Assembly (NCBI GenBank): GCA_945866215.1
Contig: CAMBGQ010000003.1
Location: forward strand, 1 to 64,000
From: Opitutus sp. GAS368
GTDB taxonomy: Bacteria > Verrucomicrobiota > Verrucomicrobiia > Opitutales > UBA953
Direction of reading: 5' to 3'
Length of the DNA: 64,000 bases
The notes under the pieces were generated by a model. It was given only the letters and a program-made list of their open reading frames with translations. It had not been told where the DNA came from and ran no database searches. Shown here piece by piece: positions 29,866-63,449 of this stretch (the stretch's first letter is position 1; each line of letters begins with the position of its first letter). A program made the position numbers and the translations under genes.

Positions 29866-31590
29866 GTGACGACCGCCGACGATTACGTCATTCAATTCAT
29901 CCAAGACAAGGGACTGGTGTCTCCTGCCGAGGTGAGCGTGGCGCGTGCCGCCATCGAGAACGTCCCGGAGGGTCAGAGCGCGGACACCCTCGCCATCGCC
30001 AAGCTGGTCGAGACCGGCAAGGTGGCATGGCCCAAGATCACGGCCGCCCTCAGCCAGGAGTTCGACATGGAAATCGTGGACGTCGGTCAAGTCGTGCCCG
30101 ACGACGCCATCCTGAAACTCATCAGCCGCGAGCAGGCCGAGAAGCATAACATCTTGCCGCTGCAGATGGACGGAACGGAACTGCTCGTCGCCATCTCGGA
30201 TCCGCTCGACACCGAGACCATTGATTCCATCTCGCGCCTGCTCAAGCTCGCCATCAGCGCAAAGCTGGCGCCGCCCGACGAGCTCAAGGAAGCCATCGGG
30301 CGCTGTTATGGCGGGTCCCAGGTTGGCGGCGGCGCCGCCTACGCCGACATCCTCGGCAAGGGTGCCGACGACGGTATCTCCGTCGAACTGCCGCAGGGGG
30401 GCGACGTGAAGGAGGATGACGCGCCCATCATCCGCTACGTCAACTCGCTGATTGTCGACGCGATCCGTCGCAAGGCATCGGACATCCATCTCGAACCCCT
30501 CGAGAAGCGGTTCCGCGTCCGTTTCCGCGTCGACGGCGTGCTGCAGGAGATGAAAGGTCCGCCCAAGCGCCTGCAGCCCTCGATCATCTCCCGCCTCAAG
30601 CTCATGGCGGAAGTCTCGCTCGCCGAGAAGCGTATCCCGCAGGACGGGCGCATCCAAGCCCGTACCGGCGGCCGCGATATCGACTTACGTGTCTCGGTCC
30701 TCCCGACCGTCTACGGCGAGTCGATCGTCATGCGAATCCTCGACAAGGAAGGCCTCAAGCTGGGCCTCCCCGAACTGGGTTTCTTCGCCGATGACCAGGC
30801 CAAGTTCCAGGGCCTCATCTCCGGTTCGGACGGTGTCTTCCTTGTCACCGGTCCGACCGGCTCCGGCAAGTCGACGACGCTTTATTCCGCGCTCAATTAC
30901 ATCAACAAGCCAGACCGTAAGATCATCACCGTCGAGGACCCGGTCGAATACCAGATGGCGGGCATCAACCAGGTGCAGGTCAAGCGCGACGTCGGCATGA
31001 CGTTCGCCGCCGCGCTCCGCGCGATGCTCCGGCAGGCGCCGAATATCGTCATGATCGGCGAAATCCGCGACCTTGAGACCGCGGAGATCGCGATCAACGC
31101 CGCCCTCACTGGCCACATGGTGTTCTCGACCCTCCACACCAACGATTCGGTCAGTTCCGTCACCCGCCTCGTCGACATCGGCGTTAAGCCGTTCCTCGTG
31201 TCCGCGGCCCTCCGCGGGGCCCTCGCCCAGCGTCTCGTGCGCCGCAACTGCCAAGGCTGCGCCGCGCCGTATCGCCCGACCGCCAAGGAACTCTACTCCA
31301 TCGGCATGACCGAGCAGGATCTCGCCAACGCCACCCCGATGAAGGGGCCGGGTTGCCCGAAGTGTGGCGACCGTGGTTACAAGGGTCGTCGCGGCGTCTT
31401 CGAGCTCTTCGTCATCACGGAGGAAATTCAGGAGATGATTTACGGTGGCGCCAACCTCGTCGACCTCCGGCGCAAGGCGCGCGAGGCCGGGATGCGCACG
31501 ATGCGCGAGGACGGTCAGCGCAAGGTCGCCTCCGGCATGACCACGATCGAGGAAGTGCTCGGCTCCACCGTCGCGGACGACGTCATCTGA
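29866..31590 (+). CDS. pilB: Type IV pilus / type II secretion assembly ATPase (PilB/GspE), first copy
   Basis: Hexameric cytoplasmic motor that drives pilus extension. The 574 residues have an N-terminal MshEN-like domain (about 1-150), the N2 domain with [21 protein letters not shown] (about 203-223), Walker [15 protein letters not shown], the Asp box, Walker [18 protein letters not shown], and a tetracysteine zinc site (RRNCQGC ... [13 protein letters not shown]). The start is GTG; no better in-frame start exists nearby. pilT follows 4 bases downstream. Confidence 0.93.
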
Positions 31591-31594
31591 GCGT

Positions 31595-32671
31595 ATGGCC
31601 TACGTGATGAATCAGCTGCTGGAGGCCATGGTGGAGAACGGGGCCTCGGACCTGCACATCAACGCGGGCCGGCCCCCGAGCCTGCGTGTCCGCGGCGACA
31701 TCGTCTCCGTCGAAGGCGCCGCCCTCACCGCGGCCGAGACCGAAGCGATGGTCACGGCCTTGCTTCCCGCGGCGCACTTGGCACGCTTCGCGTCCGAAGG
31801 TAGCTGCGATTTCGCCCTCTCCTTCCGGCAAGGCGTCCGCCTGCGCGTCAACGCCTACCGCGGCCAGTCTGGCCATGGCATGGTGCTGCGCTTGCTCCCC
31901 TCCCAGATGTTCACGCTGGAGCAACTCCGATTGCCCCCGGCCATCAAGGACCTTTTGCGCCGCGCGCGCGGGCTGATCCTCGTGACGGGTCCGACTGGGT
32001 CAGGCAAGACGACGACCCTCGCTTCGATGATCAATTGGATCAACGAGAACGAGCAGGGGCACATCATCACGATCGAAGACCCGATTGAGTATGAGCATCC
32101 CCACAAGAATTGCCTGGTGACGCAGCGCGAGGTCGGCACCGACCTCTCGTCCTTCGCTGAGGGCCTGCGTTCCGCCCTCCGCCAGGACCCGGACGTCATC
32201 CTCATCGGGGAGCTCCGCGACCTGGAGACGATTGAAGCCGCCATCACCGCGGCCGAGACCGGCCACCTTGTGCTCGGCACGCTGCATACCTCCGGCGCCG
32301 CGCGCACCATCGACCGTCTCGTGGACGCCTTCCCGGACCAGAGTCGTCCGATGATCCGCGACCAGCTTTCGACTTCCCTCACCGCCGTGATTTCCCAGTC
32401 GCTCCTGCAGACCACCGATTCCAAGCGCATCGCCGCCTACGAGATCATGGTCGTCAATGACGCCGTCTCCGCGAAGATCCGCGACGGGAAGACCTTCCAG
32501 CTGCTGACCGATATCGAGACTGGCGCCGCCCTGGGCATGCGTTCCCTCGATGGCGACCTGCTCTCGCTCTTTTTCCAAGGCGTCGTCTCCGAGGCCGAGG
32601 TCTTCAACTACTGCCAAAGTCCGGCCGCCATGCGCGTGCGCATGCGCGGCGAGGGCGCGGCGAAACGCTGA
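31595..32671 (+). CDS. pilT: Twitching motility / pilus retraction ATPase PilT
   Basis: Motor for pilus disassembly. The 358 residues lack the N-terminal domain and the zinc site of PilB. Features are [19 protein letters not shown] (N-terminal PAS-like domain), Walker [27 protein letters not shown], Walker [17 protein letters not shown] and [17 protein letters not shown]. The C-terminal segment [10 protein letters not shown] is where most PilT proteins have AIRNLIRE..K. It sits between the two pilB-type genes. Confidence 0.92.
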
Positions 32672-32700
32672 ACGCTCCCACTCTTACCCCCGCCTTTCCC

Positions 32701-34383
32701 ATGTACGACGACCACAGTGACGTAATCCGCGACATCGCCCTCGAAGCGGGCCTCGTGACGCCGGCCCAAGCCGAGGAGGTCTGGGAATCCCAAGCCACTA
32801 CCGGGAAATCTTTCAGCGATAGTCTCATCGACACCGGTCTCGCCGACCGGCCGACCCTCCTGCAGGCCATCGCTGACCACATGCAGGTGCAGTTCTACTC
32901 CGCCGTACCGGCTGACCCGGGTGAGGCCCTGACCAAGCTCCTCAAAGGACCGCAGGCCCACAAATATGTCGTGCTGCCGGTCGCCGATGAGGCGGGCAAG
33001 CTCACCCTGCTCGCAAAGGACCCCTTCAATTCCTCGGTCATCAGCGAACTGAGCTTCATCTTGCAGAAGGATATCGAACTGGCCGTGGCCGACCCCGCCC
33101 AAGTCGAAGCCGCGGTGACGCGCATCTACGGTGAGGCCACTTCCTCCTCGATGGAAGAGCTGCTGGGCGAGTTCGGCGAGGTCGATACCGCCGCCGTCAC
33201 TGATGAGGATGTCACCAAGCAGGCCAGCCAGGCGCCGATCATCCGCTTCGTTGACCTCGTCCTTCAGGAAGGCGTCAAGGCCAAGGCCTCAGACATCCAC
33301 TTCGAGCCGTTTGAGCATGAGTTCCGCATCCGTCTCCGCATTGACGGCTCGCTGTACGAAATGGCGCCTCCGCCCAAGAACCTCGCCTCGGCGGTGATCG
33401 CCCGCGTCAAGGTCCTCTCCTCGCTCAACATCGCCGAACGACGCGTGCCGCAGGACGGACGCATCAAGACGACCATCAGCGGACGCCAGATCGACCTCCG
33501 CGTGTCCACCTTGCCGACGCAGTTCGGCGAGTCCGTCGTGCTTCGAATCCTCGATAAGACCGTCGTTAACCTCAGCCTCGAGGCCCTCTCGATGCAGGAC
33601 GACATCAAGGAAGGTATCCGCACGATGGTCGGCCGTCCAAACGGCATCTTCATTGTGACCGGTCCGACCGGCTCGGGCAAGACGACCACACTTTATTCCG
33701 CGCTCCGTGAGGTCAATACCGAGGACGTCAAGATACTGACCGCCGAAGACCCCGTTGAATACGAGGTCGAGGGCATCATGCAGGTGCCGATCAACCACCA
33801 GGTCGGCCTCACTTTCGCCGCCGCCCTCCGCTCCTTTCTGCGACAGGACCCGGACACGATCATGGTCGGTGAAATCCGCGACTTGGAGACCGCCCAGATC
33901 GCCGTGCAGGCTTCCCTGACCGGCCACGTGGTGCTTTCCACCCTCCACACCAATGACGCGCCCGGCGCCGTCACCCGACTCATCGACATGGGCCTGGAGC
34001 CCTTCCTCATCTCGGCTTCCCTCGAAGGCGTCCTCGCCCAGCGCCTGCTGCGTCGCGTCTGCAAGACCTGCCGAATCGCCTATGAGCCGGACAAGGATAT
34101 CGTGGACATGCTGGGCGTCGATGCGCTTGAGATTGCCAATAAGAAGTTCTTCTACGGCAAGGGGTGCCCCGACTGCAACCGCTCCGGCTACAAGGGACGG
34201 CAAGGGCTTTTCGAGCTGATGACGATCAACGATTCGCTCCGCACGCTCATCACCCAGAAATCTCCGACCTTGGTCATCAAGCAGAAAGCCATCGAGTCGG
34301 GCATGCGCCCGCTTCGCGAAGACGGGCTGCGCTGCATCTTCGACGGACACACCTCCATCGAGGAAGTCCTTAAGTACACTTAA
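32701..34383 (+). CDS. Type IV pilus / type II secretion assembly ATPase (PilB/GspE), second copy
   Basis: Paralogue of the PilB at 29866, 560 residues. The N-terminal domain (about 1-150) differs clearly from the first copy: it begins [19 protein letters not shown] and carries the MshEN-like [17 protein letters not shown]. The core has [21 protein letters not shown] (about 199-219), Walker [15 protein letters not shown], Walker [17 protein letters not shown] and a zinc site (CKTC ... [13 protein letters not shown]). A second extension motor could be used for another pilus or a type II secretion system, or the two could work together; the sequence does not decide. Confidence 0.92.
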
Positions 34384-34410
34384 CTATCCATCTCACCCCA
34401 CCCCCATCCC

Positions 34411-35652
34411 ATGCCCGACTACAAGTACACCGCCATCGACCGCAACGGGGTCCAAGCCACCGGCAAGATTGAGGCTGCCAGCGAAGAGCAAGCCCGCACG
34501 AAACTCATGGCCAAAGGCCTCATGGTCACCAGCCTGGCCTCCGACAGCGGTGCGGCCAAGGCCGCCGCGGCGCCCGTCGCCGCGAAGGCCGGCTTCAGTT
34601 TCGGCGCCAAGGTCACCTCCGGCGACGTCACTATCATGACGCGGCAGCTGGCCACCCTCATCGTCGCCGGCCTGCCGCTCCTCCGCGCCCTCGAGCTGAT
34701 CACCAAGCAGGAGCGCAACCCGGCCTTCAAGGCGATTCTGGGTAACGTGGCCGACAGCGTCTCCCAAGGTAACAACCTCTCGGAAGCCTTGCAGGCCCAT
34801 CCGAAGGTCTTCGACAAGCTCTTCGTCAACATGGTGCGCGCGGGTGAGGCGGGGGGCGTGCTCGACAAGGTTCTTGATCGTCTCGCAAAGTTCCGCGAGA
34901 AGGCCGAGCGTATCCAGAAGAAGGTCAAATCGGCGATGGTCTACCCGGGCGTCGTCATGTCCGTGGCCATCATCATTGTTTACATCCTGATGGTGAAGGT
35001 CGTGCCTTCCTTCCAGAAGCTGCTCGATGGTCAGAAGACCAACATGCCGCCGCTGACGCAGTTCGTCGTTGGTATCTCGAAGCTGCTGACGGAATACTGG
35101 TGGGCTACCCCGATTCTCATCTTCGGGATTTACTTCGGCCTGAAGACGTGGCTGGCCACGGATAAAGGCAAGGAGATCTTCGACCGAATCCTCTTCCGCC
35201 TGCCCAAGATCGGCGGTTTTGTGCAGATCGTCTCGGTGTCCCGGTTCGCTCGTACGTTCGGTACGTTGATGGCCTCCGGCGTCCCGATTCTGCAATCCAT
35301 CACCATCACGCGCGACACGCTCTCCAATGTGGTCATCGCGAAGTCCCTCGAGCGCGTGCATGATCGCGTCCGCGACGGCGAACCGCTTTCGGTGCCGCTC
35401 GAGCAATCTGGGGTCTTCCCGCAAATGGTCACGTCGATGATTCAGGTCGGCGAAGAGACCGGCCAGCTGCCCGAGATGCTCAACCGCGTCGCCGACATCT
35501 ACGACGAGGAAGTCGACAATGCCGTGACCGCGCTGACCTCGATCATCGAGCCGGTGCTCATCGTCTTCCTCGCTGTCGTCGTCGGCACGATCGTGCTGGC
35601 GATGTTCCTGCCGCTCATCGCCCTCATCACCAAGATGACCGGCGGCGGCTGA
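34411..35652 (+). CDS. pilC: Type IV pilus inner-membrane platform protein PilC/GspF
   Basis: Polytopic inner-membrane platform on which the PilB/PilT motors act. The 413 residues have the N-terminal YKYTAIDRNGVQATGKIEA motif, two GspF repeats with FGTLMASGVPILQSI and RQLATLIVAGLPLLRALEL, and three membrane segments (about 172-192, 225-245, 380-403). Last gene of pilB-pilT-pilB-pilC; a terminator follows. No pilin, prepilin peptidase or PilMNOPQ genes are in the window. Confidence 0.94.
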   Translation: MPDYKYTAIDRNGVQATGKIEAASEEQARTKLMAKGLMVTSLASDSGAAKAAAAPVAAKAGFSFGAKVTSGDVTIMTRQLATLIVAGLPLLRALELITKQERNPAFKAILGNVADSVSQGNNLSEALQAHPKVFDKLFVNMVRAGEAGGVLDKVLDRLAKFREKAERIQKKVKSAMVYPGVVMSVAIIIVYILMVKVVPSFQKLLDGQKTNMPPLTQFVVGISKLLTEYWWATPILIFGIYFGLKTWLATDKGKEIFDRILFRLPKIGGFVQIVSVSRFARTFGTLMASGVPILQSITITRDTLSNVVIAKSLERVHDRVRDGEPLSVPLEQSGVFPQMVTSMIQVGEETGQLPEMLNRVADIYDEEVDNAVTALTSIIEPVLIVFLAVVVGTIVLAMFLPLIALITKMTGGG

Positions 35653-36110: not shown

Positions 36111-38114
36111 ATGATTAATTACCCCCTTCTAGCGATGACTGAAGAAACTCCCCCGCCCCCCTCTGGCGACGTCCCTCCGGCTGACTTAAAGAACATCGAG
36201 ACCGATGCCCTTGGGTCTAAGCGTATGAAGCGCAGCTTTTGGCAGCGTATCGGCGCCAGTGGGCTTTCGGTGTCGATCGCATTCCACGTTCTACTCGTGT
36301 TCATCGCGGCCGCTTTCGTCGTCTCCACGGTCACCGACAACGCGAAGAAGGATCCCAACGCCTTCGCCACGGGCGCTGGCGGCGGCTCCGGCGGAGAACG
36401 TGTGAAGAATACAGACCGCAAGGTGCAGCCGAAGAACGTCAAGTCGCTGGCCAAGACGACCACCCGCATCACCTCCAAGAGCGCCTCCGCTTCCATTGCC
36501 CTGCCCGAAATGCCGAGCTCCGCCTCGGCCTCTTCGATGGTCTCCGGCGCGATGGCCGGCGGCTCCTCCAAGGGTTTCGGCGGCGGCTCCGGTGGTGGCA
36601 TCGGCTCCGGCAAGGGCATGGGCTCGGGCGGCGGCAAGAACTTCGTCTCCAAGCCCGTCATGGGCGCCAACATCTTTTCCCAGCGCCTGGCGGTCTATTT
36701 CGACGCTTCGGCCTCCATGCTTCCCTACCTCGAGCGCGTCGAAGCGGAAATCCGCGACAAGTTCCCCGATGCCGACGTGTTCCTCAGCAACGGGGTCTTC
36801 GTCGACGTGCACGACAACGAAATCGTCGGCGGGGATAAGTTTAAGGGTACGGCTTACCTTAACCGCAGTGCCAGCGGCGGGAGCAAGAAGAACGCTAAAG
36901 GGGAAATCGTCCCGACCGATACCAATCCGGCCAAGCTCACGACTATGGGCCGGGCTATCTTCAAGAAATATGGCGAGAACTTCAAGAAAGGCTCCGTCGG
37001 CGGTTGGCTCGATATCTTGAAGGACGATCGGACATATGACGCGCTGATCATCTTCTCCGACTTTGAGGACGGTGTTCGCCAGATCCGCACCAAGGCCATC
37101 GGTAATGTCTCCGCCTACAAGCCCGATAAGGGCATGCGCGCCGACCCGCCCGTGGTCTTCTCCGACCGCACCAACCAAGGCGGCGGGTTTGCCCGCTCCG
37201 TCACCCTGATTGCCAACGGCGGCGGCACGGGTCAGCCGGTCGTGCAATGCAAAGACACCACTGGTCTGATTGTCGGCATGGTGGCCCTTGGCTCCGGCAT
37301 CCCGCAGGGTACCACCGTCACCGCGATCAGCGATAACGTCAGCTTCACGCTCAGCAAGCCTCTCACTGCCGCCGCTTCGGGACGCGTCGTCTGCAATAAC
37401 GGGGGAGACCGGCGCTTCCCTGAAGAAAAGAAGTGGGAGGACGAGTGGGAGAAGGCCTTCCTGGGCGCCCGCGAAAATAAGGGACCGCGCCTCTACGTGA
37501 TCAGCACATCTCGGTCCTATGGGAGCAAGCCGGGGACGATTATCCAGCGTTGCGTCGCCGCTTCCGAAGGCGGTTCCATCATGGTCAAGTTCGGCGATGC
37601 GAAGAAGGGCGCTACCGCCCTCACCAACTTGCACAACTATAACGACCTTTACGTTGGCATGCCGGTCGGTGGACGTGGCATCCCCGAAGGTGCGATCCTG
37701 ACGGCGATGCCGACCTTCAAGAATATCCCCGACCCCGAGGACCCTGAAAAGAAGCGCATGAAGCGCGTGGTCGACAAGCCGCTGACAATCTCCGCTCCGG
37801 TCCTCGAAGAGGTCACGAATGTGGTCTTTTCCTTCACGCCCCTCATCCAGGCCGTCGGTACCCTCGCGAAGGATTCCAAGGTCCTTGACGAAGTCTCCGG
37901 CTCGGTGGACCTCAAGGCCGGTATGATCATCCAGGACGCTCGCTTCCCTGTCGCCACGAAGGTCGTCACCGTGACGCCCACCAAGACTTCCCCGGGGTTC
38001 TTCACTGTCGAGATGTCCGCCCCGGCTACCGCATCCTCAGCTAATGCTTTATTGCGTTTTCGTCCGGCTGGCTCGAGCACCGGTAATGCCCGCGGCGGCG
38101 CACCCGCCCGCTAA
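36111..38114 (+). CDS. Membrane-anchored VWA-like protein with Gly-rich linker and repeat inserts (VWA paralogue 1)
   Basis: No named family recognised. The 667 residues contain a cytoplasmic Pro-rich start, one membrane helix (about 51-74), the motif TSKSASASIALPEMP (121-135), a Gly/Ser-rich linker (145-177), KPVMGANI (181-188) and a VWA-like half with DASASM (MIDAS-type DxSxS at 198-202) through ALIIFSDFEDGVR (311-323). A first repeat, with GSGIPQGTTVTAISDN (394-409), is inserted before the second VWA half (KWEDEW...RLYVIST, 441-467). Two related repeats follow (about 510-575 and 600-650). AAGGAGG sits four bases before the ATG; ATG 36135 is an alternative. First of three paralogues; envelope role inferred. 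Confidence 0.7.
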   Translation: MINYPLLAMTEETPPPPSGDVPPADLKNIETDALGSKRMKRSFWQRIGASGLSVSIAFHVLLVFIAAAFVVSTVTDNAKKDPNAFATGAGGGSGGERVKNTDRKVQPKNVKSLAKTTTRITSKSASASIALPEMPSSASASSMVSGAMAGGSSKGFGGGSGGGIGSGKGMGSGGGKNFVSKPVMGANIFSQRLAVYFDASASMLPYLERVEAEIRDKFPDADVFLSNGVFVDVHDNEIVGGDKFKGTAYLNRSASGGSKKNAKGEIVPTDTNPAKLTTMGRAIFKKYGENFKKGSVGGWLDILKDDRTYDALIIFSDFEDGVRQIRTKAIGNVSAYKPDKGMRADPPVVFSDRTNQGGGFARSVTLIANGGGTGQPVVQCKDTTGLIVGMVALGSGIPQGTTVTAISDNVSFTLSKPLTAAASGRVVCNNGGDRRFPEEKKWEDEWEKAFLGARENKGPRLYVISTSRSYGSKPGTIIQRCVAASEGGSIMVKFGDAKKGATALTNLHNYNDLYVGMPVGGRGIPEGAILTAMPTFKNIPDPEDPEKKRMKRVVDKPLTISAPVLEEVTNVVFSFTPLIQAVGTLAKDSKVLDEVSGSVDLKAGMIIQDARFPVATKVVTVTPTKTSPGFFTVEMSAPATASSANALLRFRPAGSSTGNARGGAPAR

Positions 38115-38134
38115 AAAGCTGTTCCATCGGTCTG

Positions 38135-38165
38135 AAAGGCGAAGTCACCCGGCTTCGCCTTTTTG
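38135..38165 (+). terminator. Terminator between VWA paralogues 1 and 2
   Basis: Perfect ten-base stem AAAGGCGAAG/CTTCGCCTTT (38135-38144, 38153-38162) with an eight-base loop and a T-run. The three VWA genes are therefore probably not one simple transcript. Confidence 0.88.
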
Positions 38166-38251
38166 GTGCCTAAGGCAAAGCCCCCACGCGACAAAAATGA
38201 ATAAGATTCCAAGTTCACGCTCCTGCTCGCACCATTGAATCAACCCCACCG

Positions 38252-39010
38252 ATGAACCCCTCCAAGATTTTCGCGATTATCGGCCTAGCTCTGCTCCCTG
38301 CCTTCGCCCACGCGGCCAAGGTCGTCAGCGTGACGGGCGACGGCGGCGAGCCGGCTCCGCGCATCGCGGTCTACCTCGATTGCTCCGGCTCGATGGCGCC
38401 CTACCTCGAAGCCGTCGAGGCCGAGGTTCGGAAGCAGTTCCCCGACGCCGATGTCTTCAAGGTGCCCGCCATCAAGGTCTGGGTCGATGGCACCGTGGTC
38501 CGTGGCGGCGCGTCGTCCGTGCTGCCGCATAAGCCCGCTCCGGCTGGACCAAGAGTCAGCCTCGACACAAGCCGCCTTAGCCCGACGGGCAAGGAGATCC
38601 TGGCCCGCTATGCAGGTAATTTTGAAGTAGGTTCCGTCGGCGCCTGGGTCGACATCCTGCGCACCGAGAAGCGCTACGACGCGTTGGTAATCTTCTCCGA
38701 CTTCAACGATCAGGTCTTGCAGGCGCGCGCCGGTAATCCGTCGGCGCAGACTTATGTCGACGACGCCGGGCAGCGCCACCTACCCGAAGCGGAAATCACG
38801 GACGACCGTACCGTCCTGGAGAAGAAGTGGGAAGACCTCTGGGTCGGTTCCTTCGACCTCGCCAACGCTGGCAAGGCACCGGCGCTCTATCTTTTCTCCA
38901 CGCGTAATCCGGCCAGTCGGATCTTGCAGAAGTCAGCCGAGGTCTCGGGCGGAAAATTCACGCTCATCGATTGGCTGCGTCCCGACGGCCCGCCAAAGCC
39001 TGCGAACTGA
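38252..39010 (+). CDS. Secreted VWA-like protein (VWA paralogue 2)
   Basis: The 252 residues start with a signal peptide (MNPSKIFAIIGLALLPAFAHA, given as region 1-21, cleavage AHA-AK). The mature part is almost only the VWA-like domain: RIAVYLDCSGSMAPYLEAVE with MIDAS-type DCSGS (43-47), FPDADVFKV, VGSVGAWVDIL, ALVIFSDFNDQV and KKWEDLWVGSF ... ALYLFST. Every one of these blocks is matched in the two neighbours, but the membrane helix and Gly linker are missing. It could be a periplasmic partner of the anchored forms. There is no lipobox. Confidence 0.7.
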   Translation: MNPSKIFAIIGLALLPAFAHAAKVVSVTGDGGEPAPRIAVYLDCSGSMAPYLEAVEAEVRKQFPDADVFKVPAIKVWVDGTVVRGGASSVLPHKPAPAGPRVSLDTSRLSPTGKEILARYAGNFEVGSVGAWVDILRTEKRYDALVIFSDFNDQVLQARAGNPSAQTYVDDAGQRHLPEAEITDDRTVLEKKWEDLWVGSFDLANAGKAPALYLFSTRNPASRILQKSAEVSGGKFTLIDWLRPDGPPKPAN

Positions 39011-39104
39011 GGTCCGTCCCTGAGGACTTCGCTGGGTCGACGCCTCGGGGATGAACGAAAGGCCCCGGCCTTGAGTCCGACGTTAGCCCGCTAACCTGCG
39101 GGCC

Positions 39105-40187
39105 ATGTCTTTGGCCGACCCTCTCGTGGCAACCCGCCCCCGTCCGCCCTCCTGGCGGAGTTTGGGTGGGTCGTTATTCTTCCATGGCTTGCTCGTCGTG
39201 TTGGCCTGTTGGGTCGTCCTGCGTACGCCGAATCTCCCGCCGGCCGCGAAGGAGTTTGTGGCCCATGCCGTCGCGGGAGGGAGGTCCGGTGCGCCGGCCT
39301 CCGTCCATCCGGTGCAACGTAAGCCCAAGGTCACGGTGCCGGCGAAGCGGCTCGTCTCCAAGTCGGCGAGCGCGACGCTCGTCTTGCCGCCGATGAAGGT
39401 GATGATGCCGGAGGCGGGGCTGGCAGGATTGTCCGCCGGACAAGGGAAGGGTGGCTTCGGCCGCGGGCAGGGCGCCTTCGGTGGGAACGGCCTGGGCGCT
39501 GGTCTGGGTAATCGGGCCGGGTTCGTCGGCCGTCCGGTGATGGGCGCCTTCATCCGCGCCCATCGCGTCGCGGTCTATCTCGATTGCTCGGGGTCGATGC
39601 GCTCCTATTTACCGCGTGTCGAGGCTGAGATTCGGAGGCAGTTTCCCGATGCGGACGTCTTCCGCTTTGACGGGGCCCGGGTGGTTGGACTGGGTGATAA
39701 GGTCGTCCACGGGCGCAGCTTCCGCGGTCCTGCGCCTCGCCTTCGCGAGGGCCCGACCCAGACCGCGGTCGAAACATTGACGCCGGCTGGCCGGCTGGTG
39801 CAGGCGAAGGTCCGCGCAGCTTGCGAGAAGGGATCGTTGGGCGCATGGCTGGACCGGCTGTTGGCGGAGCCTTATGACGCCTTGGTGGTCTTCTCGGATT
39901 TTCAGGACGGCGTCCGGCTCTACGAGACCAAGCAAGGGGAGCCGAAGATGGTCTACTCGGATAGTTCCTACCATAAGGTCGGCAATCGCCAGCCCCGTCT
40001 CACCCGCTGGCAACGCGAATGGCTGGACGCCTTCGCCCGGGCCGCGCAGGCCCGCGGGCCGCGGCTTTACCTCTTCACCGTCCAGCAGGAGCCGCAGGCT
40101 TTCCTGCAGGCTTGCGTGGCGGCTTCCGGCGGCGCCTCGACCTCGGTGTCCTGGCTGAAGAAAGGTGGCCGCAAGGCGTCGCCTTGA
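39105..40187 (+). CDS. Membrane-anchored VWA-like protein with Gly-rich linker (VWA paralogue 3)
   Basis: The 360 residues have a single N-terminal membrane helix (about 22-39), then VSKSASATLVLPPM (84-97), a Gly-rich linker (107-138), RPVMGAFI (143-150), and the VWA-like domain with VAVYLDCSGSMRSYL (MIDAS-type Asp160, Ser162, Ser164), RQFPDADVFRFDG, GSLGAWLDRLL, ALVVFSDFQDGVRLYE and RGPRLYLFTV. The layout equals paralogue 1 without the repeat inserts. The shared SKSASA..LP.M and PVMGA.I motifs lie outside the VWA domain, so the two anchored forms descend from one anchored ancestor. Confidence 0.7.
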   Translation: MSLADPLVATRPRPPSWRSLGGSLFFHGLLVVLACWVVLRTPNLPPAAKEFVAHAVAGGRSGAPASVHPVQRKPKVTVPAKRLVSKSASATLVLPPMKVMMPEAGLAGLSAGQGKGGFGRGQGAFGGNGLGAGLGNRAGFVGRPVMGAFIRAHRVAVYLDCSGSMRSYLPRVEAEIRRQFPDADVFRFDGARVVGLGDKVVHGRSFRGPAPRLREGPTQTAVETLTPAGRLVQAKVRAACEKGSLGAWLDRLLAEPYDALVVFSDFQDGVRLYETKQGEPKMVYSDSSYHKVGNRQPRLTRWQREWLDAFARAAQARGPRLYLFTVQQEPQAFLQACVAASGGASTSVSWLKKGGRKASP

Positions 40188-40224
40188 CGGTTGCACCCTT
40201 TGGCCGGACGGCTTGGATAGGCGC

Positions 40225-40644
40225 ATGGTTCCCTTCACGGCAGAACACCGCGCTAATTTCTCCGACACCGATGCCGCGGGCATCGTGCACTTCTCGACGG
40301 TTTTCTTCTGGGTCGAGGCGACCGAAGAGGCCTTGTTCCGCCAGCTCAAGCTGCCGTTCCTCCGTACCGAAGGCGCGAAGCTAATGGGCTTCCCGCGCGT
40401 ACGTGTCGAGTGCGACTTCCTTTCGCCGATTTACCGCGAAGACGTCGTGACCGTCTCGCTGACGCCGGTCGAGATCGGCGACAAGAAGCTCGCCTGGGGC
40501 TTCACCGCCGCGGTCGGTGAGCGGGCCGTCGCCAAGGGCGCACTGACGACCGTCTACGCCTGGCGCGAAGGGCAAGGGCCGATGTCGGCTGCGCTCGTGC
40601 CACTCGAGATCAAGACGGCGCTGCAAAAGCATTTTACCGCGTGA
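40225..40644 (+). CDS. Acyl-CoA thioesterase, 4-hydroxybenzoyl-CoA thioesterase (YbgC-like) family
   Basis: Hot-dog fold hydrolase of about 139 residues. NFSDTDAAGIVHFSTVFFWVEATEE (region about 10-34) is the family signature: the Asp in DTDAAG is the usual catalytic residue. The substrate is not clear; tetramers of this type act on short-chain or aromatic acyl-CoAs. I use ATG 40225, since the 20 codons upstream show no similarity. Its stop overlaps the start of the next gene by one base (TGATG), so the two are coupled. Confidence 0.85.
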   Translation: MVPFTAEHRANFSDTDAAGIVHFSTVFFWVEATEEALFRQLKLPFLRTEGAKLMGFPRVRVECDFLSPIYREDVVTVSLTPVEIGDKKLAWGFTAAVGERAVAKGALTTVYAWREGQGPMSAALVPLEIKTALQKHFTA

Positions 40645-57323: not shown

Positions 57324-57767
57324 TTATTCCGTGTCGGACACGGCGAACGTGACGTTCGTGATGTTCGCCTTGGCCAGGCAATCGAGGACGTTGATCACGC
57401 GCTCATAGCGGGCGGTTTCCTCGGCTTGGACCGTGATGAGCAGCTTGGTCTTGGACTGTTCGGCGGCTTGGCCCATCTGCTTCATCTGATTGTAAAGGTT
57501 CTCGAGGAGCTTGTCGTTGGCCGCGCCCACCGGATCTTCGTTGAGCGTGATCTCGCCGGTCTCGCTGACGCCGATCGTCACTTCGTCGGGCAGTTCGGTC
57601 TCCTTGGCGGTCTCGGCGTTACCGGGCAGGGTGGTCTTGAGCTCGTGCTCGACCTTCACCGCCCCGGCCATGACCATGAAGAAGAGCATGATCACGAAGA
57701 CCACGTCGATCATCGGGGCGATTTGGAAGCCAGGGTTGGCGTCGGCCTGTTGTTCGATTCTTTTCAT
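57324..57767 (-). CDS. ExbD/TolR-family biopolymer transport protein (second copy)
   Basis: 147 residues with the ExbD pattern: a short cytoplasmic N-terminus, one membrane helix starting GFQIAPMIDVVFVIMLFFMVMAG (region about 13-35) with the proton-path Asp in PMIDV, and a periplasmic domain ending in NITNVTFAVSDTE. It pairs with the ExbD just upstream, so ExbB would work with two different ExbD proteins. It has one of the few full Shine-Dalgarno sequences here (57774-57782), located in the end of the preceding gene. Confidence 0.92.
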   Translation of the reverse strand: MKRIEQQADANPGFQIAPMIDVVFVIMLFFMVMAGAVKVEHELKTTLPGNAETAKETELPDEVTIGVSETGEITLNEDPVGAANDKLLENLYNQMKQMGQAAEQSKTKLLITVQAEETARYERVINVLDCLAKANITNVTFAVSDTE

Positions 57768-57770
57768 GGC

Positions 57771-58211
57771 TCACTCCTCCTTGTTGAGGCCCGAGAAGGC
57801 GATGTTGTCGATGCCGGCTTCGGCTCCCCATTCGAGGGCCTTCGAGATATATTTGGCGTGGCACTCCCGGTCGGCGCGGATGAGCAGACGATACTTTTCG
57901 TTCGTGCCCTTGCGGTCGGCGAGTTCCTTCGCGATGCCATCCTTGTCGTTCGCGTCCAGCTCGCGGTCATCGAGCTTGTAGCGGGCTTGTCCCGTGGTCT
58001 TGTCCCACGAGATATTGACGAGACCGGCGGCCGCCTTGTCGTCGCGCTTGATGCCGTTGGTGGCGACGGGCAGGGAGATATTCTTGTCGACCTTGAGCAC
58101 CTGGGCCGAGGTGATGGACATGAAGAAGATGAGCAGCACCAGAAGCACGTCGATCATCGGCGCGACCTGGAATTCTGGTTCACCTTCTCCGCCTCCGCCT
58201 CCGCCTGCCAT
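57771..58211 (-). CDS. ExbD/TolR-family biopolymer transport protein (first copy)
   Basis: 146 residues. It starts with a run of six glycines (MAGGGGGGEGEPEF), then the ExbD helix QVAPMIDVLLVLLIFFMSI with the conserved Asp. The periplasmic domain (about 45-146) contains a Lys/Asp-rich insert (NGIKRDDKAAAG, WDKTTGQARYKLDDRELDANDKDG) and little similarity to the second copy outside the helix. The three-base gap to the next exbD and 36 bases to exbB place it in one operon. Confidence 0.92.
   Translation of the reverse strand: MAGGGGGGEGEPEFQVAPMIDVLLVLLIFFMSITSAQVLKVDKNISLPVATNGIKRDDKAAAGLVNISWDKTTGQARYKLDDRELDANDKDGIAKELADRKGTNEKYRLLIRADRECHAKYISKALEWGAEAGIDNIAFSGLNKEE
57774..57782 (-). promoter_or_regulatory. 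Full Shine-Dalgarno sequence before the second exbD
   Basis: AAGGAGGAG on the minus strand, 7 bases from the ATG at 57767. It is formed by the last codons (Lys-Glu-Glu) of the preceding exbD. Most starts in the window have no such motif, so this start may be translated independently. Confidence 0.6.
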
Positions 58212-58247
58212 GTCCGTGTAGTTGGGTTAAGGGTGGGGTGCTCAGCC

Positions 58248-59036
58248 TTAGGCCTTGGAGGAAGTGCTCCAGTTGGGCTTCGAGGCGTAGATCTCTTCGT
58301 CACCGACCTGGCGGTCCTTGATTTCCTCGTAGGGGAAGGCACGGAAGAGGCCGGTCACGATTTCGGTGATGTCGTGGATGCCCTTGTTGATGCGGTTCGC
58401 CAGAAGGTAGTAGGACATAAACGCGGGAATCGCGATGAACAGGCCGGAGGCGGTAGCCACGAGCACTTCGCCGATGGCGCCGGAGAGCTTGGAAGGGTCG
58501 CCCACGCCGGAGGTGCCGAGGGTCTCGAACGCGCTCATCATGCCGGTTACCGTGCCGACTAGGCCGATCATCGGGGTGCAGACGCCGATCACGGACAGGT
58601 AGGAGGAGCGGCCCTTGAGTTCGGCTTGGATGCGGGTGATTTCAGAGATGATCGCTTCTTCCGTCATGGTCTTACCATCCGGGGTGAAGGCCACACCGGC
58701 CCGGACGACGTCGGCGACAGGCGAGCCAGCGGTCTTGGCGAAGGCGTAGGCTCCCACATAGTCACCCTTCTTGAAGAGCTCCCGGAGTTGGGTGACATGT
58801 TCGGCAGGGTAGAGCTTGCCGGCGCCCGTCCGGATGTAGCCGTCCACGATGAACCAGATCATCGCGACGGAGCAGAGGGTGATGGGGTACATGACCCAGC
58901 CGCCCTCGATGAAGAGGTCCGCGAGGGTCTTCTTGTGGACGCCCGCCGCCGCGGCGGCTTCCTGGGCCGAGGCAGCAAGGGTCATCAGGCCGAGGAGGAG
59001 GGCACTGAAGGAGGTGGATTTGAGATGCATCTTCAT
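58248..59036 (-). CDS. ExbB/TolQ/MotA-family proton channel protein with signal peptide
   Basis: 262 residues from ATG 59036. The first 24 are a signal peptide (ALLLGLMTLAASAQ), a known variation in ExbB of some phyla. Three membrane helices follow: VMYPITLCSVAMIWFIVDGY, SVIGVCTPMIGLVGTVTGMMSAFE with the conserved TPMIGLLGTVxGM pattern, and IGEVLVATASGLFIAIPAF. With the two ExbD proteins it should form a proton-driven stator in the inner membrane. It lies 52 bases after a TPR gene. No TonB or TonB-dependent receptor is in the window. Confidence 0.92.
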   Translation of the reverse strand: MKMHLKSTSFSALLLGLMTLAASAQEAAAAAGVHKKTLADLFIEGGWVMYPITLCSVAMIWFIVDGYIRTGAGKLYPAEHVTQLRELFKKGDYVGAYAFAKTAGSPVADVVRAGVAFTPDGKTMTEEAIISEITRIQAELKGRSSYLSVIGVCTPMIGLVGTVTGMMSAFETLGTSGVGDPSKLSGAIGEVLVATASGLFIAIPAFMSYYLLANRINKGIHDITEIVTGLFRAFPYEEIKDRQVGDEEIYASKPNWSTSSKA

Positions 59037-59088
59037 GACGATAGGGGGGTGGTGGTTTGTAGGTGAGGATTTGGAAAGGGGCAAGGAC

Positions 59089-60105
59089 TCACTTGTTGCC
59101 TTCGACCTTCTCTTCGTCGGCGAGCTTGGGCTTGGCCATGATGACGCCTTCGGGCAGGGGGCCGCCCCCAGCAATCTTCTTCTGGTCGGCCTCGGCCTTG
59201 GCGCGTTCTTCCATGGGCAACATCTTTTTGGCCTCTTCGGCCTCCTTGGAGACCGGGAAAGAGACGATGATGTCGTAGAGGTAACGATTGGATACCGTCT
59301 CGAGTTTCTGGTCGCGGAGGGCTGGGCTGTCCATGCCACGGAAGGACCGGGCGGCGCCGAGTAAAGCCTTGGGGATGAGCTCGGTCTCGGAGCCGAAGAA
59401 GACCGGTACACGGAGGTAGGCGGTCATGGCGGCCTCGTATTTCTTAGTGGCAAGGAGCGAGTTGCCTTTGACGATATGGAGGCGGGCTTGGAGTTCGGCG
59501 GTATCGACCTTGGCGAGGAGGCTGTTGGCCTCCTTCACGACTTCGTCATGGTCGCCTTTGCGGGCGCGCAGCATCAGGCGGGTGAGCTGGATTTGCGTGG
59601 CGACCTCAGGGAGCTTGGCGGCTTCCTCCTTCTCGAAGGCATTGAGGTAGTTCACGGTCGCGGCGTCGTTCTCGAGGCGATCGAGAGCGTCCAGCTTGAC
59701 GAGCGAAGCCTTGATCCACCAAGAGCCGGGGACGTTCTTGAGGGGCTCGAAGAATTTCAGCACGGCCTCAACGTTGTCGAGGGCCTTGGCGGGTTCGCCT
59801 CGGCTGACGTTGGCTTGGGCCTCCGCAAGGCGCGAGGGTACGGGCCAGACCACTTCGGTGACCTCGGAGAGCTTGCGGGTGAGGGTCACTTCGATCCCTC
59901 CGGAATTACTCACGCGGTCGACGGTTCCCTTGATCGCGTTGATGACACCCTTCTTGGAGTCGATGACGGGCTTCGGCGGTACGGAGCTATCCAACTTGAA
60001 CGGGTCGTTGACTTCCCAGCGTTCGCCTTTGAAGACGAAGGTCTGGGCCGAAGCCGCGGCAGCGGCGAGGAGCGCGAAGGCGGGGAGGAGTCGGAGGGAG
60101 CGCAT
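59089..60105 (-). CDS. Secreted TPR-like protein of the ExbBD operon
   Basis: 338 residues with a signal peptide (MRSLRLLPAFALLAAAAASAQ, region 1-21). Residues 22-90 form a small beta-rich part (VFKGERWEVNDPFKLD), and 90-270 are helical TPR-like pairs (EPAKALDNVEAVLKFFEPL, KYEAAMTAYLRVPVFFGSE). The C-terminus is Lys/Glu/Pro-rich (EERAKAEADQKK, KLADEEKVEGNK). It probably sits in the periplasm. Its start is 5 bases after the stop of the 1112-residue TPR protein. No catalytic motif was seen. Confidence 0.8.
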   Translation of the reverse strand: MRSLRLLPAFALLAAAAASAQTFVFKGERWEVNDPFKLDSSVPPKPVIDSKKGVINAIKGTVDRVSNSGGIEVTLTRKLSEVTEVVWPVPSRLAEAQANVSRGEPAKALDNVEAVLKFFEPLKNVPGSWWIKASLVKLDALDRLENDAATVNYLNAFEKEEAAKLPEVATQIQLTRLMLRARKGDHDEVVKEANSLLAKVDTAELQARLHIVKGNSLLATKKYEAAMTAYLRVPVFFGSETELIPKALLGAARSFRGMDSPALRDQKLETVSNRYLYDIIVSFPVSKEAEEAKKMLPMEERAKAEADQKKIAGGGPLPEGVIMAKPKLADEEKVEGNK

Positions 60106-60110
60106 GAGGT

Positions 60111-63100
60111 TCAGAGTCCGAGGAGGTAGGCCTTGGCTTCGACCCCTTCGCGGGTGTCTTTGATGCGGTCTTTCTCGAGCATCTCTTGGAGGATGAGCTT
60201 GGCGGCGTCCTTCTGGTTGAGTTTGGTCGAGAACAGCTTGGCGGCCCCGAAATAGGATTTGGCGGCCCAGACCTCATACTTCTTCCAAGTCAGGTAGCAG
60301 CGGCGGTAGTAGGCGATGGCTTCGCTGTAGCCTTTCTCATCGGTCGCCTGGCGTTCGGCGACTTGGCCGAGCCAGTAGAGGGAGGCGGCGGTCTTCTCGC
60401 CGCGCCATTCCTTGGTCCCGGCGATCATCGTGAACGCATCATGGGCTTCCTTATATTGGGAGCGCTCGGCCAAGGCACAGGCTTGGATGAAGCGAATGTC
60501 GAGCTCCTTGGCCATCAGGATATTATTGTCGACGGCCTCGTTGCAGAGCGAGAGGGCTTCGGCGTACTTCTTGTCGGCGAAGGCGATTTCGGCCAGGCCG
60601 GCGAAGCCGTAGTCGGCGTATTCTGACGAGCGGGAGTGCTCGAGAATATAGCGGAAATAGTCGGCGGCTTTCTGTCGGTCGCCCTTGGCGAGAAGGCTGT
60701 CGCCGACGATGGCAAGGATGGTGGGATTGAGCTCCTCGGCTTTGTAGTTGGCAGCGATTTTGGCGAAGTTGGCGGTCGTCTTCTCGGGTTCGCGGGTGAA
60801 CACGGCGAGCTGGCCGAGGGCGAAGAAGCCGCGGGCTTGGGCCACGAGCGAATTGCGGTTCGCCTCAAGGCGGAGCAGTTTGACGAGCTCCTTCTCCGCG
60901 TCGGCGCTGGTGTAGGCGCCCGGTTCAGGCGCGACACCAGGCTTCACGCGCTTGACCTTGCGGGCGAGCTTCTCGGCGAGGAAGACGATGAGCTTCTCGG
61001 TACCCTCCTGCTTGCGATCGTTGATGGATTCCGCGACGGCGTCGGAAAGAATCTTGAGCGCGCGGGTCTTCTGGTCGGCGATGGAGGTCTGCCGCTTGGC
61101 TTCGACCTTGGCGAGTTCGGCCTCGAGTTCGGCGGAGAGCTTCCGGACGGACGCCTTGGCGACGTCGATCTCGGCTTGAGTGATGCCTGGCTTGCGCTCG
61201 AGTTGGTCGACGGCCTTGCGGCCGGCGGCGAGCTGGTCGCTGAATTTCTTGCGCACCGTCTCGGCCTCGCCGACGAATTCGGGCATATCGCCCATCCGCT
61301 CGGTGGAGCGGATGACTTCGTAGAGGTAGGTCATCGCCTTGGGGTCGTTATGGTCCCAGTCGAAGATTTCCTTGAACAGGTCGCGCATGCGCTTGTGTTC
61401 GCCGCGGCCGGGCAGGAGCTTGCGCAGCTCGCCGAGGACGAATTCCAGGGCCTGGGGATTGGTGCGGGCGCTCTTGGCGGCGGCCTCATAGGCGTCGATT
61501 GCCTTGCTGGTGACGGCCTCCTTCTCCTGCTCGATCTTCGTCTTGATTTCGACGAACTTGGCCTTGTCTCCCGTCCGGGCGTTGAGGCGGACGTCGATAT
61601 CGGCGGCCTTGACCTTCTTATCGAGCTCGTCGGCAACGGCGATGTAGGCGTCGCCGATGAGGGTGTGGACCTCGGGCACCTGCGCGATGACCTCATCGAG
61701 GTTGTTTTTCGCGTTATCCTTCAGCCAGTCTTCACAAAGTTTGAGGGTGCCGGGGATGTCGCGCGGAGTGGTGCCGAATTTGACGATGGCCTGACGGTAA
61801 CGGACGTCGGCGATGAACTGCCCCTTCGGAAACTCCTGCTCATACTTGTCGAAGTCGGTCTTGGTCTCCTTGTACTTGCCTTGGAAGAACGAGCACAGCG
61901 CGCTCATGTAGAGCACCTGCTGGCGGACGGGGGTGCGTTCGTATTTGGCGAGGAAGGCCTCGAAGGCCTTCTGGGCGGGCGCCCAGTCGACCTGGGAGAA
62001 GAGGCAGGCGGCGATGCGGAACTCGATCTCCTCGGCAATTTCGGGAGCGAGGTTCTTCACGTTGGCTTGGACCCACTTGTAATGGGCGATGGCCTCGGGG
62101 TATTCCTCGCGCTCCTGGGAGATATCGCCGAGGATTAGGGCGATGGAGGAAACCTGATCGTCCTGGGGAAACTTGGCGATGAACTCCTTGCACTTCGCCT
62201 GGGCGTCGTTGTTCCGGCCGATGCGACGTAGGGCGAGGATGTGATAGTAGTAAGCCCCCGAGATGCGGCTGAAGCCTGGGCTATTTTCAAAGATGTCGAG
62301 GAAGGCGACGTGGGCTTCCCAGTTGCGCTTCAGTTCGAGCAGGCAGAGCCCGATGCGATAGGAGATGAATGCGTCATAGTCCTTGTTCGCGTTGAACTCA
62401 TCCTGGATTTTCTTGAATTGAGTAATCTCCTGCGTGACCTTCTCGATGTTGGCCGCCTGTTCGGGGTTCGGCTTGGGGAAGTTCTTCGTGAGGGTGGCGA
62501 ACTCGGCCTGTTTCGCCTCGATGGCCCGCCCGAAGGAGCTGCTGAGGTTGGCGCGCCGTAGGGTGCCTTGGTAGTTGGCGAGGGCCTGGCGGTAGAAGTC
62601 GCCGCGGAAAGCCTCGTCGGCGGCCGATTCGGCGGCGGAGAAGCGGGCGTCCCCGATTTCGAGGCGCTGGAAGTTGGAACGGACGACTTCAACGGGCGAG
62701 CCGCTGCTCCGCGCGTCGACCTCGTTCTTCAGCTGGGTCGCCTCTTTGGTCAGGCCGAGCTTGGTATACATCTCGACAAGCTTGTAGGCGGCGTCGCGTT
62801 TTTCCGGGGTATTAATGCCGTCGGCGGTGGCTTGCTTGAGGAGGGTGATGGCTTGCGCGTAAGCGGCCCGTTTGACGTCGTCGGTGCCGCTCTTGGCTCG
62901 GTCGACGATGACTTGGGCGGAAAGGGCGAAAGCGTTGACGCGTTCTTCCGGGCGGGCGAGCGCGCTGGAGCGGATTTTTTCGAGGCGCGCCAAGGCCAGC
63001 TCCCAGCGGCTTTGCTTGGAAAGGGCTTCGATCAGCAGCAAGTCGGCGACTCCCCGGCGATTATCGGTATCGGAGAGGAAATCTTCCGTGCCTTTGGGGT

Positions 63101-63449
63101 ATTTCTCCAAGAAGGCGGTCAGCTCGCTCTCCGCCCGGGGCCAATCCTTAATGAAGAAGTGGCAGAGGGATTTCTGGTAGGAGAGGACGGCCTTCAGCTT
63201 CAGCTCGACGTCGACGGCCTTGGCATCGAGTTCCTCAAACTGTTCGAGGGCTTCCCGGTATTTCTTCTCTTCGAAGCTCTTGACCGCGGCTTTGTACAAG
63301 ATGGACATGGGGTCTTCCGCCTGCTTCTTGGCTCCAGGGAGCGGCGGTGTTTGCGCCAGCAATACGCCGGTGAGCGGGGTCACGGCGATGAGGACGGCGA
63401 GCAGGGCGGCCTTGGCTGCTTGATAGGTTCGGGACTCTGGGGTAAGCAT
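60111..63449 (-). CDS. Very large secreted TPR protein of the ExbBD operon
   Basis: 1112 residues with a long signal-anchor-like N-terminus (AAKAALLAVLIAVTPLTGVLLAQ). The rest is alpha-helical repeat through to the end, with typical TPR pairs such as KSFEEKKYREALEQFEELD, KYKETKTDFDKYEQEFPKGQF and KGDRQKAADYFRYILEHS. A more charged coiled-coil-like stretch, EIKTKIEQEKEAVTSKA and ELEAELAKVEAKRQTS, lies at about 625-790. The repeats resemble the outer-membrane lipoprotein YbgF/BamD style of TPRs. First gene of the operon; likely a periplasmic scaffold. Function unknown. Confidence 0.85.
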   Translation of the reverse strand: MLTPESRTYQAAKAALLAVLIAVTPLTGVLLAQTPPLPGAKKQAEDPMSILYKAAVKSFEEKKYREALEQFEELDAKAVDVELKLKAVLSYQKSLCHFFIKDWPRAESELTAFLEKYPKGTEDFLSDTDNRRGVADLLLIEALSKQSRWELALARLEKIRSSALARPEERVNAFALSAQVIVDRAKSGTDDVKRAAYAQAITLLKQATADGINTPEKRDAAYKLVEMYTKLGLTKEATQLKNEVDARSSGSPVEVVRSNFQRLEIGDARFSAAESAADEAFRGDFYRQALANYQGTLRRANLSSSFGRAIEAKQAEFATLTKNFPKPNPEQAANIEKVTQEITQFKKIQDEFNANKDYDAFISYRIGLCLLELKRNWEAHVAFLDIFENSPGFSRISGAYYYHILALRRIGRNNDAQAKCKEFIAKFPQDDQVSSIALILGDISQEREEYPEAIAHYKWVQANVKNLAPEIAEEIEFRIAACLFSQVDWAPAQKAFEAFLAKYERTPVRQQVLYMSALCSFFQGKYKETKTDFDKYEQEFPKGQFIADVRYRQAIVKFGTTPRDIPGTLKLCEDWLKDNAKNNLDEVIAQVPEVHTLIGDAYIAVADELDKKVKAADIDVRLNARTGDKAKFVEIKTKIEQEKEAVTSKAIDAYEAAAKSARTNPQALEFVLGELRKLLPGRGEHKRMRDLFKEIFDWDHNDPKAMTYLYEVIRSTERMGDMPEFVGEAETVRKKFSDQLAAGRKAVDQLERKPGITQAEIDVAKASVRKLSAELEAELAKVEAKRQTSIADQKTRALKILSDAVAESINDRKQEGTEKLIVFLAEKLARKVKRVKPGVAPEPGAYTSADAEKELVKLLRLEANRNSLVAQARGFFALGQLAVFTREPEKTTANFAKIAANYKAEELNPTILAIVGDSLLAKGDRQKAADYFRYILEHSRSSEYADYGFAGLAEIAFADKKYAEALSLCNEAVDNNILMAKELDIRFIQACALAERSQYKEAHDAFTMIAGTKEWRGEKTAASLYWLGQVAERQATDEKGYSEAIAYYRRCYLTWKKYEVWAAKSYFGAAKLFSTKLNQKDAAKLILQEMLEKDRIKDTREGVEAKAYLLGL

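Follow-up and report, generated by a model that had tools for sequence, protein, structure and literature searches.

Three consecutive genes on the forward strand of the window (the whole 64,000-nt stretch of DNA that was analysed, part of an Opitutales metagenome-assembled genome) encode VWA-like paralogues, and their open reading frames lie exactly at 36111..38114 (VWA1, 667 aa), 38252..39010 (VWA2, 252 aa) and 39105..40187 (VWA3, 360 aa). VWA1 is composed of an SxxxH transmembrane anchor, an SKSASA region, a Gly-rich linker, an interrupted VWA-like domain (36684..37574, forward strand, with the MIDAS residues D198-A-S200-A-S202, the block FSDFED and a beta-repeat insert at about residues 355-432) and C-terminal beta repeats; its start is possibly codon 9 (MTEET, 36135), as in its relatives. 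VWA3 comprises an SxxxH anchor (S23-x3-H27), a Gly-rich linker and a VWA-like domain (39561-40184), and VWA2 is a secreted protein built of a plain N-terminal signal peptide (AHA-A) and a VWA-like domain, without an anchor. The preliminary description of this DNA, made from its letters, had read the locus as an expanded envelope system of anchored and periplasmic VWA proteins, and this stands, with two SxxxH-anchored copies and one that carries a signal peptide only.

Alignment placed the blocks AVYxD(A/C)SxSM..YL..VEAE, FPDADVF and YDALxxFSDFxD in the same order in all three copies, of which copies 2 and 3 are each 42% identical to copy 1. The motifs SKSASAxxxLPxM and PVMGAxI, together with the Gly-rich linker, are common to copies 1 and 3 only. 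Judged from the aligned sequences, the shared blocks go far beyond chance, since all 43 aligned homologues have D-x-S-x-S and FSDFxD unchanged. A fourth anchored copy, VWA4, is present in the genome (C34:17193), and in a phylogenetic tree the copies found across the genus form the orthologous clades VWA1, VWA2, VWA3 and VWA4. VWA1 proteins of one subclade carry three degenerate beta repeats of the type 'L.vGM.v.G.giP.Gt.vt.i' (recognized by eye; window 37170-37410 and 37580-38090), one of which interrupts the VWA domain after the FSDF strand, ahead of the next helix; such repeats are missing from VWA1 orthologues of smaller size (about 430-450 aa).

Separate control of the copies by terminators between them had also been proposed, and this holds for one spacer but not for the other. 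An intrinsic-terminator-like hairpin with a 10-bp stem and a T-run (38135..38164, forward strand) was read by eye between VWA1 and VWA2; the terminator scanner had not reported it, as the stem extends into the T-run. In the VWA2-VWA3 spacer inspection found no terminator-like hairpin with a T-tract. The scan itself returned 7 sites against 5.8 expected, which is chance level.

The surroundings of the three genes are conserved in genus g1, with FtsH-CoaE-PilB-PilT-PilB-PilC upstream and 4HBT-GT-C-ApbE-TPR-YyaL-MutL-UvrB downstream. The thioesterase/GT-C/ApbE neighbours, whose conservation the preliminary description had asked about, are thus retained throughout this genus; since the whole 20-kb stretch, including housekeeping genes, is conserved, this reflects general synteny and says little about function. 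The thioesterase gene (YbgC/FadM-like, 4HBT; 40165-40644) shares 23 bp with the end of VWA3 when read from a GTG start, and is kept after VWA3 in the genus. In the type IV pilus cluster (29866-35652) two PilB-like ATPases flank PilT and are followed by PilC, and this cluster is unusually constant beside VWA1 in g1. In genus g23 (L104:2529-3809 and L106:2537-5312) pilC and VWA1 are separated by minus-strand genes, the first of which resembles a DUF1501-type exported protein (TRREFL... signal, read by eye).

Fold and distribution of the VWA-like domain

None of the three domains matched a characterised family in Pfam, NCBIfam or PDB sequence searches: no Pfam or NCBIfam model matched any copy as VWA, the same scan of 18 diverse homologues gave no VWA match, and no sequence family was matched in the PDB. 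The AlphaFold model of the VWA3 domain (pLDDT 92.9, pTM 0.90) has the strand-helix order of a VWA domain, and its top five Foldseek matches are all VWA-domain entries (Rpn10-complex, CLCA1; probability 0.94-0.99, E 0.001-0.007), although none of the E-values falls below 0.001, which tells against the assignment. The VWA2 model reached a pLDDT of 82 and gave weak Foldseek matches, perhaps owing to flexible ends. The MIDAS residues D/S/S/D are invariant, and T/S74 (VWA3 domain numbering), located before helix 2 in 43 of the 43 aligned homologues, would complete a MIDAS-type site. The copies are therefore predicted to share a MIDAS-bearing VWA fold that the Pfam and NCBIfam models fail to detect.

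Profile searches located this VWA domain in 74 of 373 genomes of the order, all of them within the window's GTDB family, and found it absent from the other sampled Opitutales families; in the phylum sample, just five weak partial matches lie beyond the window's family. It is thus a new VWA subfamily, invisible to present libraries and, within the sample, essentially limited to one GTDB family. Other genomes with two or more copies do exist, and the tandem is not limited to a single genome: the VWA1-VWA3 pair recurs in nearly all sampled genomes of the genus in which the contig reaches far enough, and also in genus g23. Of 37 genomes of the genus, 10 have a full-length VWA2.

On another contig of the genome (G000:C35:7188-10098), three ordinary PF13519 VWA genes (L001, L002 and L004) are clustered, and the profile of the VWA1-3 family does not pick them up. 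A search of phage records revealed no relative of VWA1, and phage origin was rejected on this ground.

The Ser-x3-His anchor and its module

The anchor helices of VWA1 (36261..36332, forward strand; S55-x3-H59, SIAFH) and VWA3 (39162..39218, forward strand; SLFFH) resemble those of TonB and TolA. The motif of the latter two proteins is Ser-x3-His-x6-Leu-x3-Ser, and its Ser-His pair contacts ExbB/TolQ in cryo-EM structures of the Ton and Tol systems (PMC12215075). VWA1 and VWA3 retain the Ser-His core of this SHLS motif, with A and V replacing the trailing L and S. With the helices registered on the pattern [ST]xxxH, Ser is kept in 79 and His in all of 80 distinct anchored homologues, which is the top conservation in the anchor; L+7, A+11 and V+15 are near-invariant and complete one conserved helix face. 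In two additional proteins of the VWA3 type (L110 and L111), T replaces the S. Among other proteins with an N-terminal helix encoded in the DNA that was examined, 6 of 172 contain SxxxH; four of these six are apparently similar transducers, two being encoded directly behind ExbB-ExbD-ExbD, and the background among other N-terminal helices is about 1%. On its sequence, the anchor of VWA1 and VWA3 is a TonB/TolA-type SxxxH helix.

This anchor is not restricted to VWA proteins. When the anchor and the SKSASA region were combined into one profile (A3), it detected six proteins in the genome, i.e. VWA1, VWA3, VWA4 and three others (L025:2351-3706, L184:9334-10824 and L185:1220-2590), the C-terminal parts of which look PA14-like by eye. 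A Pfam scan of the L184 and L025 proteins gave no match; among homologues, the one at L186 exceeded the cut-off of Pfam PA14 (2.2e-8) and the one at L193 matched weakly. In relatives, PA14-like module proteins form tandem arrays of two or three (L192, L193, L194 and L195). The module is present in 35 of 35 sampled members of the window's family, and its matches in other families are mostly weak (1e-4 to 1e-6). Genome G181 has it on PA14-like proteins only, with no VWA match. One anchor bearing exchangeable VWA and PA14 domains is a new feature. A literature search on TonB-like PA14 proteins found none, and no paper was found on the Akkermansia mucin-uptake locus as a possible relative.

The ExbB-ExbD-ExbD motor operon

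Candidate motor genes are located 17 kb from the VWA genes, in a TPR-TPR-ExbB-ExbD-ExbD operon on the reverse strand (57327-63449). It consists of genes for a large TPR/YfiO-like protein (60111..63449, 1112 aa), a second TPR protein (59089..60105, 338 aa), an ExbB/TolQ-like motor subunit (58251..59036; Pfam MotA_ExbB 1.3e-25, PDB TolQ/ExbB 1.9e-12) and two ExbD/TolR-like stators, ExbD1 (57774..58211) and ExbD2 (57327..57767; Pfam ExbD 1.5e-23, ExbD/TolR in the PDB). Both stators keep the aspartate of PMIDV, in ExbD2 named as the transpore Asp, and ExbD1 has a homologue at the same position in the operons of other families. An ExbD match was found in 79 of 79 sampled genomes of the window's family, and the orthologous ExbD2 and motor are kept in 23 of 23.

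The closest relatives of this motor (ExbD2 at least 41% identical) occur in G086 (two loci), G137, G251, G199 and G059. In each case a gene 11-31 bp downstream of the operon specifies a VWA or PA14-like domain on an S/TxxxH anchor, and two more distant motors (G055 and G047) are followed by an S/TxxxH-anchored protein after 31 and 61 bp, respectively. Three of the linked proteins match the A3 module profile (G086, 2e-13; G059, 2e-11; G199, 1.5e-5), and in the operon-linked VWA proteins of G086, G137, G251 and G199 the Ser is replaced by T. Where ExbD is more remote still (other families, about 30% identity), most operons lack an anchored gene of this kind. It is the anchor module alone that is common to both sides: a profile comparison between the VWA1-3 domain and the VWA type linked to the operon in other families was not significant and gave no support for homology between them.

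Within the window's family, the motor operon adjoins a module protein in 0 of 23 genomes examined, so that pairing of VWA1 and VWA3 with the window's motor rests on homology. As the genome also encodes ExbB at C25 and at C7 and one clear TonB, with TonB_C, at C17, this pairing is no more than likely. Most parsimoniously, the genes for the transducers would have multiplied and scattered through the genome, with the motor remaining in one copy.

The three ExbB loci leave room for an arrangement in which VWA1 and VWA3 serve a different motor (the ExbB/ExbD of C25 or C7) or are true Tol-Pal components. A Tol-like role would agree with the YbgC-like 4HBT gene overlapping VWA3, to which the tol-pal YbgC model gives a weak match. 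That match, however, reaches 28.8 bits where the cut-off is 141.35, a TolA-type domain is absent, and where module proteins elsewhere share an operon with a motor, this motor is related to the one in the window. We regard this explanation as unlikely.

Probable force transduction and comparison with known systems

The best explanation, which we consider likely to be correct, is that VWA1 and VWA3 are proton-motive-force-driven, TonB/TolA-like transducers in which a divergent VWA domain replaces TonB_C and which dock on an ExbB-ExbD-ExbD motor. In the mechanism that we infer, coupling would be achieved by the SxxxH helix docking at the side of an ExbB/TolQ pentamer that encloses an ExbD1/ExbD2 pair, the motor most likely being the TPR-TPR-ExbB-ExbD-ExbD set of the window. 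The anchor would be moved by proton flow, the force would cross the periplasm through the flexible Gly-rich linker, and the VWA domain may grip a partner in the outer membrane or cell wall through its MIDAS metal site, so that the 'hand' with which this freshwater bacterium pulls on its outer envelope is probably a VWA domain and not the usual TonB one. VWA2, having lost the anchor, would be a free periplasmic paralogue that shares or competes for the same ligand. Several interchangeable 'hands' may be served by the motor, because the same anchor module carries PA14-like domains elsewhere in the genome. A bolder version, plausible enough to be stated but to which we give somewhat less than an even chance, is a multi-tool motor: one ExbB-ExbD-ExbD set would drive six or more paralogous anchors of TonB-like type, on which VWA and PA14-like domains are exchangeable, and the secreted VWA paralogue would act as a soluble regulator or ligand carrier.

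Two readings without energy coupling through this motor were weighed against force transduction. VWA1 and VWA3 could be passive VWA scaffolds or adhesins anchored in the inner membrane, with SxxxH as ancestral baggage; the anchorless VWA2 indicates that the VWA domain can apparently work unanchored, but it is exactly S and H that are conserved across VWA1, VWA3, VWA4 and the PA14-type paralogues while most neighbouring anchor positions vary, and this makes the passive role improbable. Least probable of all, and very doubtful, is that VWA1 and VWA3 are accessory proteins of the upstream type IV pilus (PilB-PilT-PilB-PilC), e.g. PilY1-like adhesins or assembly factors: PilY1 also has a VWA domain and the order PilC-VWA1-VWA3 is kept in g1 wherever a contig spans it (more loosely in g23), yet this adjacency is weak evidence within a wholly conserved 20-kb stretch, pilus-VWA linkage is found in only two of five genera (g1 and g23), PilC occurs throughout the family while the VWA genes of g22 and g25 lie on other contigs or far off and the sole sampled g24 genome has PilC and no VWA, paralogues in the genome are far from pilus genes, and a cytoplasm-to-periplasm SxxxH anchor is a feature of neither pilins nor PilY1. 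The loss of pilC linkage in g22, g24 and g25 weakened the pilus-accessory reading.

It was not until 2025 that proton-motive-force-driven transducers other than TonB and TolA were proposed, without an assigned function. With near-invariant Ser-His anchors, natural swapping of VWA and PA14-like domains and VWA2 as a natural anchorless control, the family described here makes two questions directly testable: the load on which such motors act, and whether a single motor drives many transducers.

Among known systems, PilY1-type proteins share with VWA1 and VWA3 the VWA fold and, in genera g1 and g23, the adjacent pil genes; they differ in their C-terminal domain, which Pfam did not detect here, in the SxxxH anchor and in the loss of pil linkage in other genera. 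TolA-TolQ-TolR (Tol-Pal) is similar in the anchor motif and in the window's motor subunit, nearest to TolQ in the PDB, and differs in that the locus has no TolA C-terminal domain, helical domain II or tolB/pal, and a thioesterase that is only weakly YbgC-like. The likeness to TonB-ExbB-ExbD extends to the Ser-x3-His anchor helix, the flexible periplasmic linker and an ExbB/ExbD-type motor in the genome; here, VWA takes the place of TonB_C (no Pfam TonB_C match), and two different ExbDs and TPR proteins are present.

The preliminary description had recognized no described system of this composition, a statement that no longer holds, given the TonB/TolA-type SxxxH helix that forms the anchor and the proposal of vWA force transducers by Williams-Jones et al. 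2025 (PMC12204202), with TPR-TolQ-TolR-TolR-vWA loci in PVC bacteria and no phenotype reported. Like these, VWA1 and VWA3 have a Ser/His transmembrane helix, a disordered linker and a C-terminal domain of vWA fold, and relatives of their anchor in sister families are encoded behind genes for TPR, TolQ-like and two TolR-like proteins, an adjacency given as 'often' and not as a requirement (PMC12204202). Unlike these, the L and S of SHLS are replaced by A and V, the VWA sequence of the window's family is not alignable with the motor-linked VWA proteins of sister families, the transducers have multiplied (VWA1, VWA3, VWA4 and PA14-like versions), and both their unlinking from the motor and the secreted anchorless paralogue are new. 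The arrangement is most readily understood as a variant form of the vWA force transducers proposed in that study.
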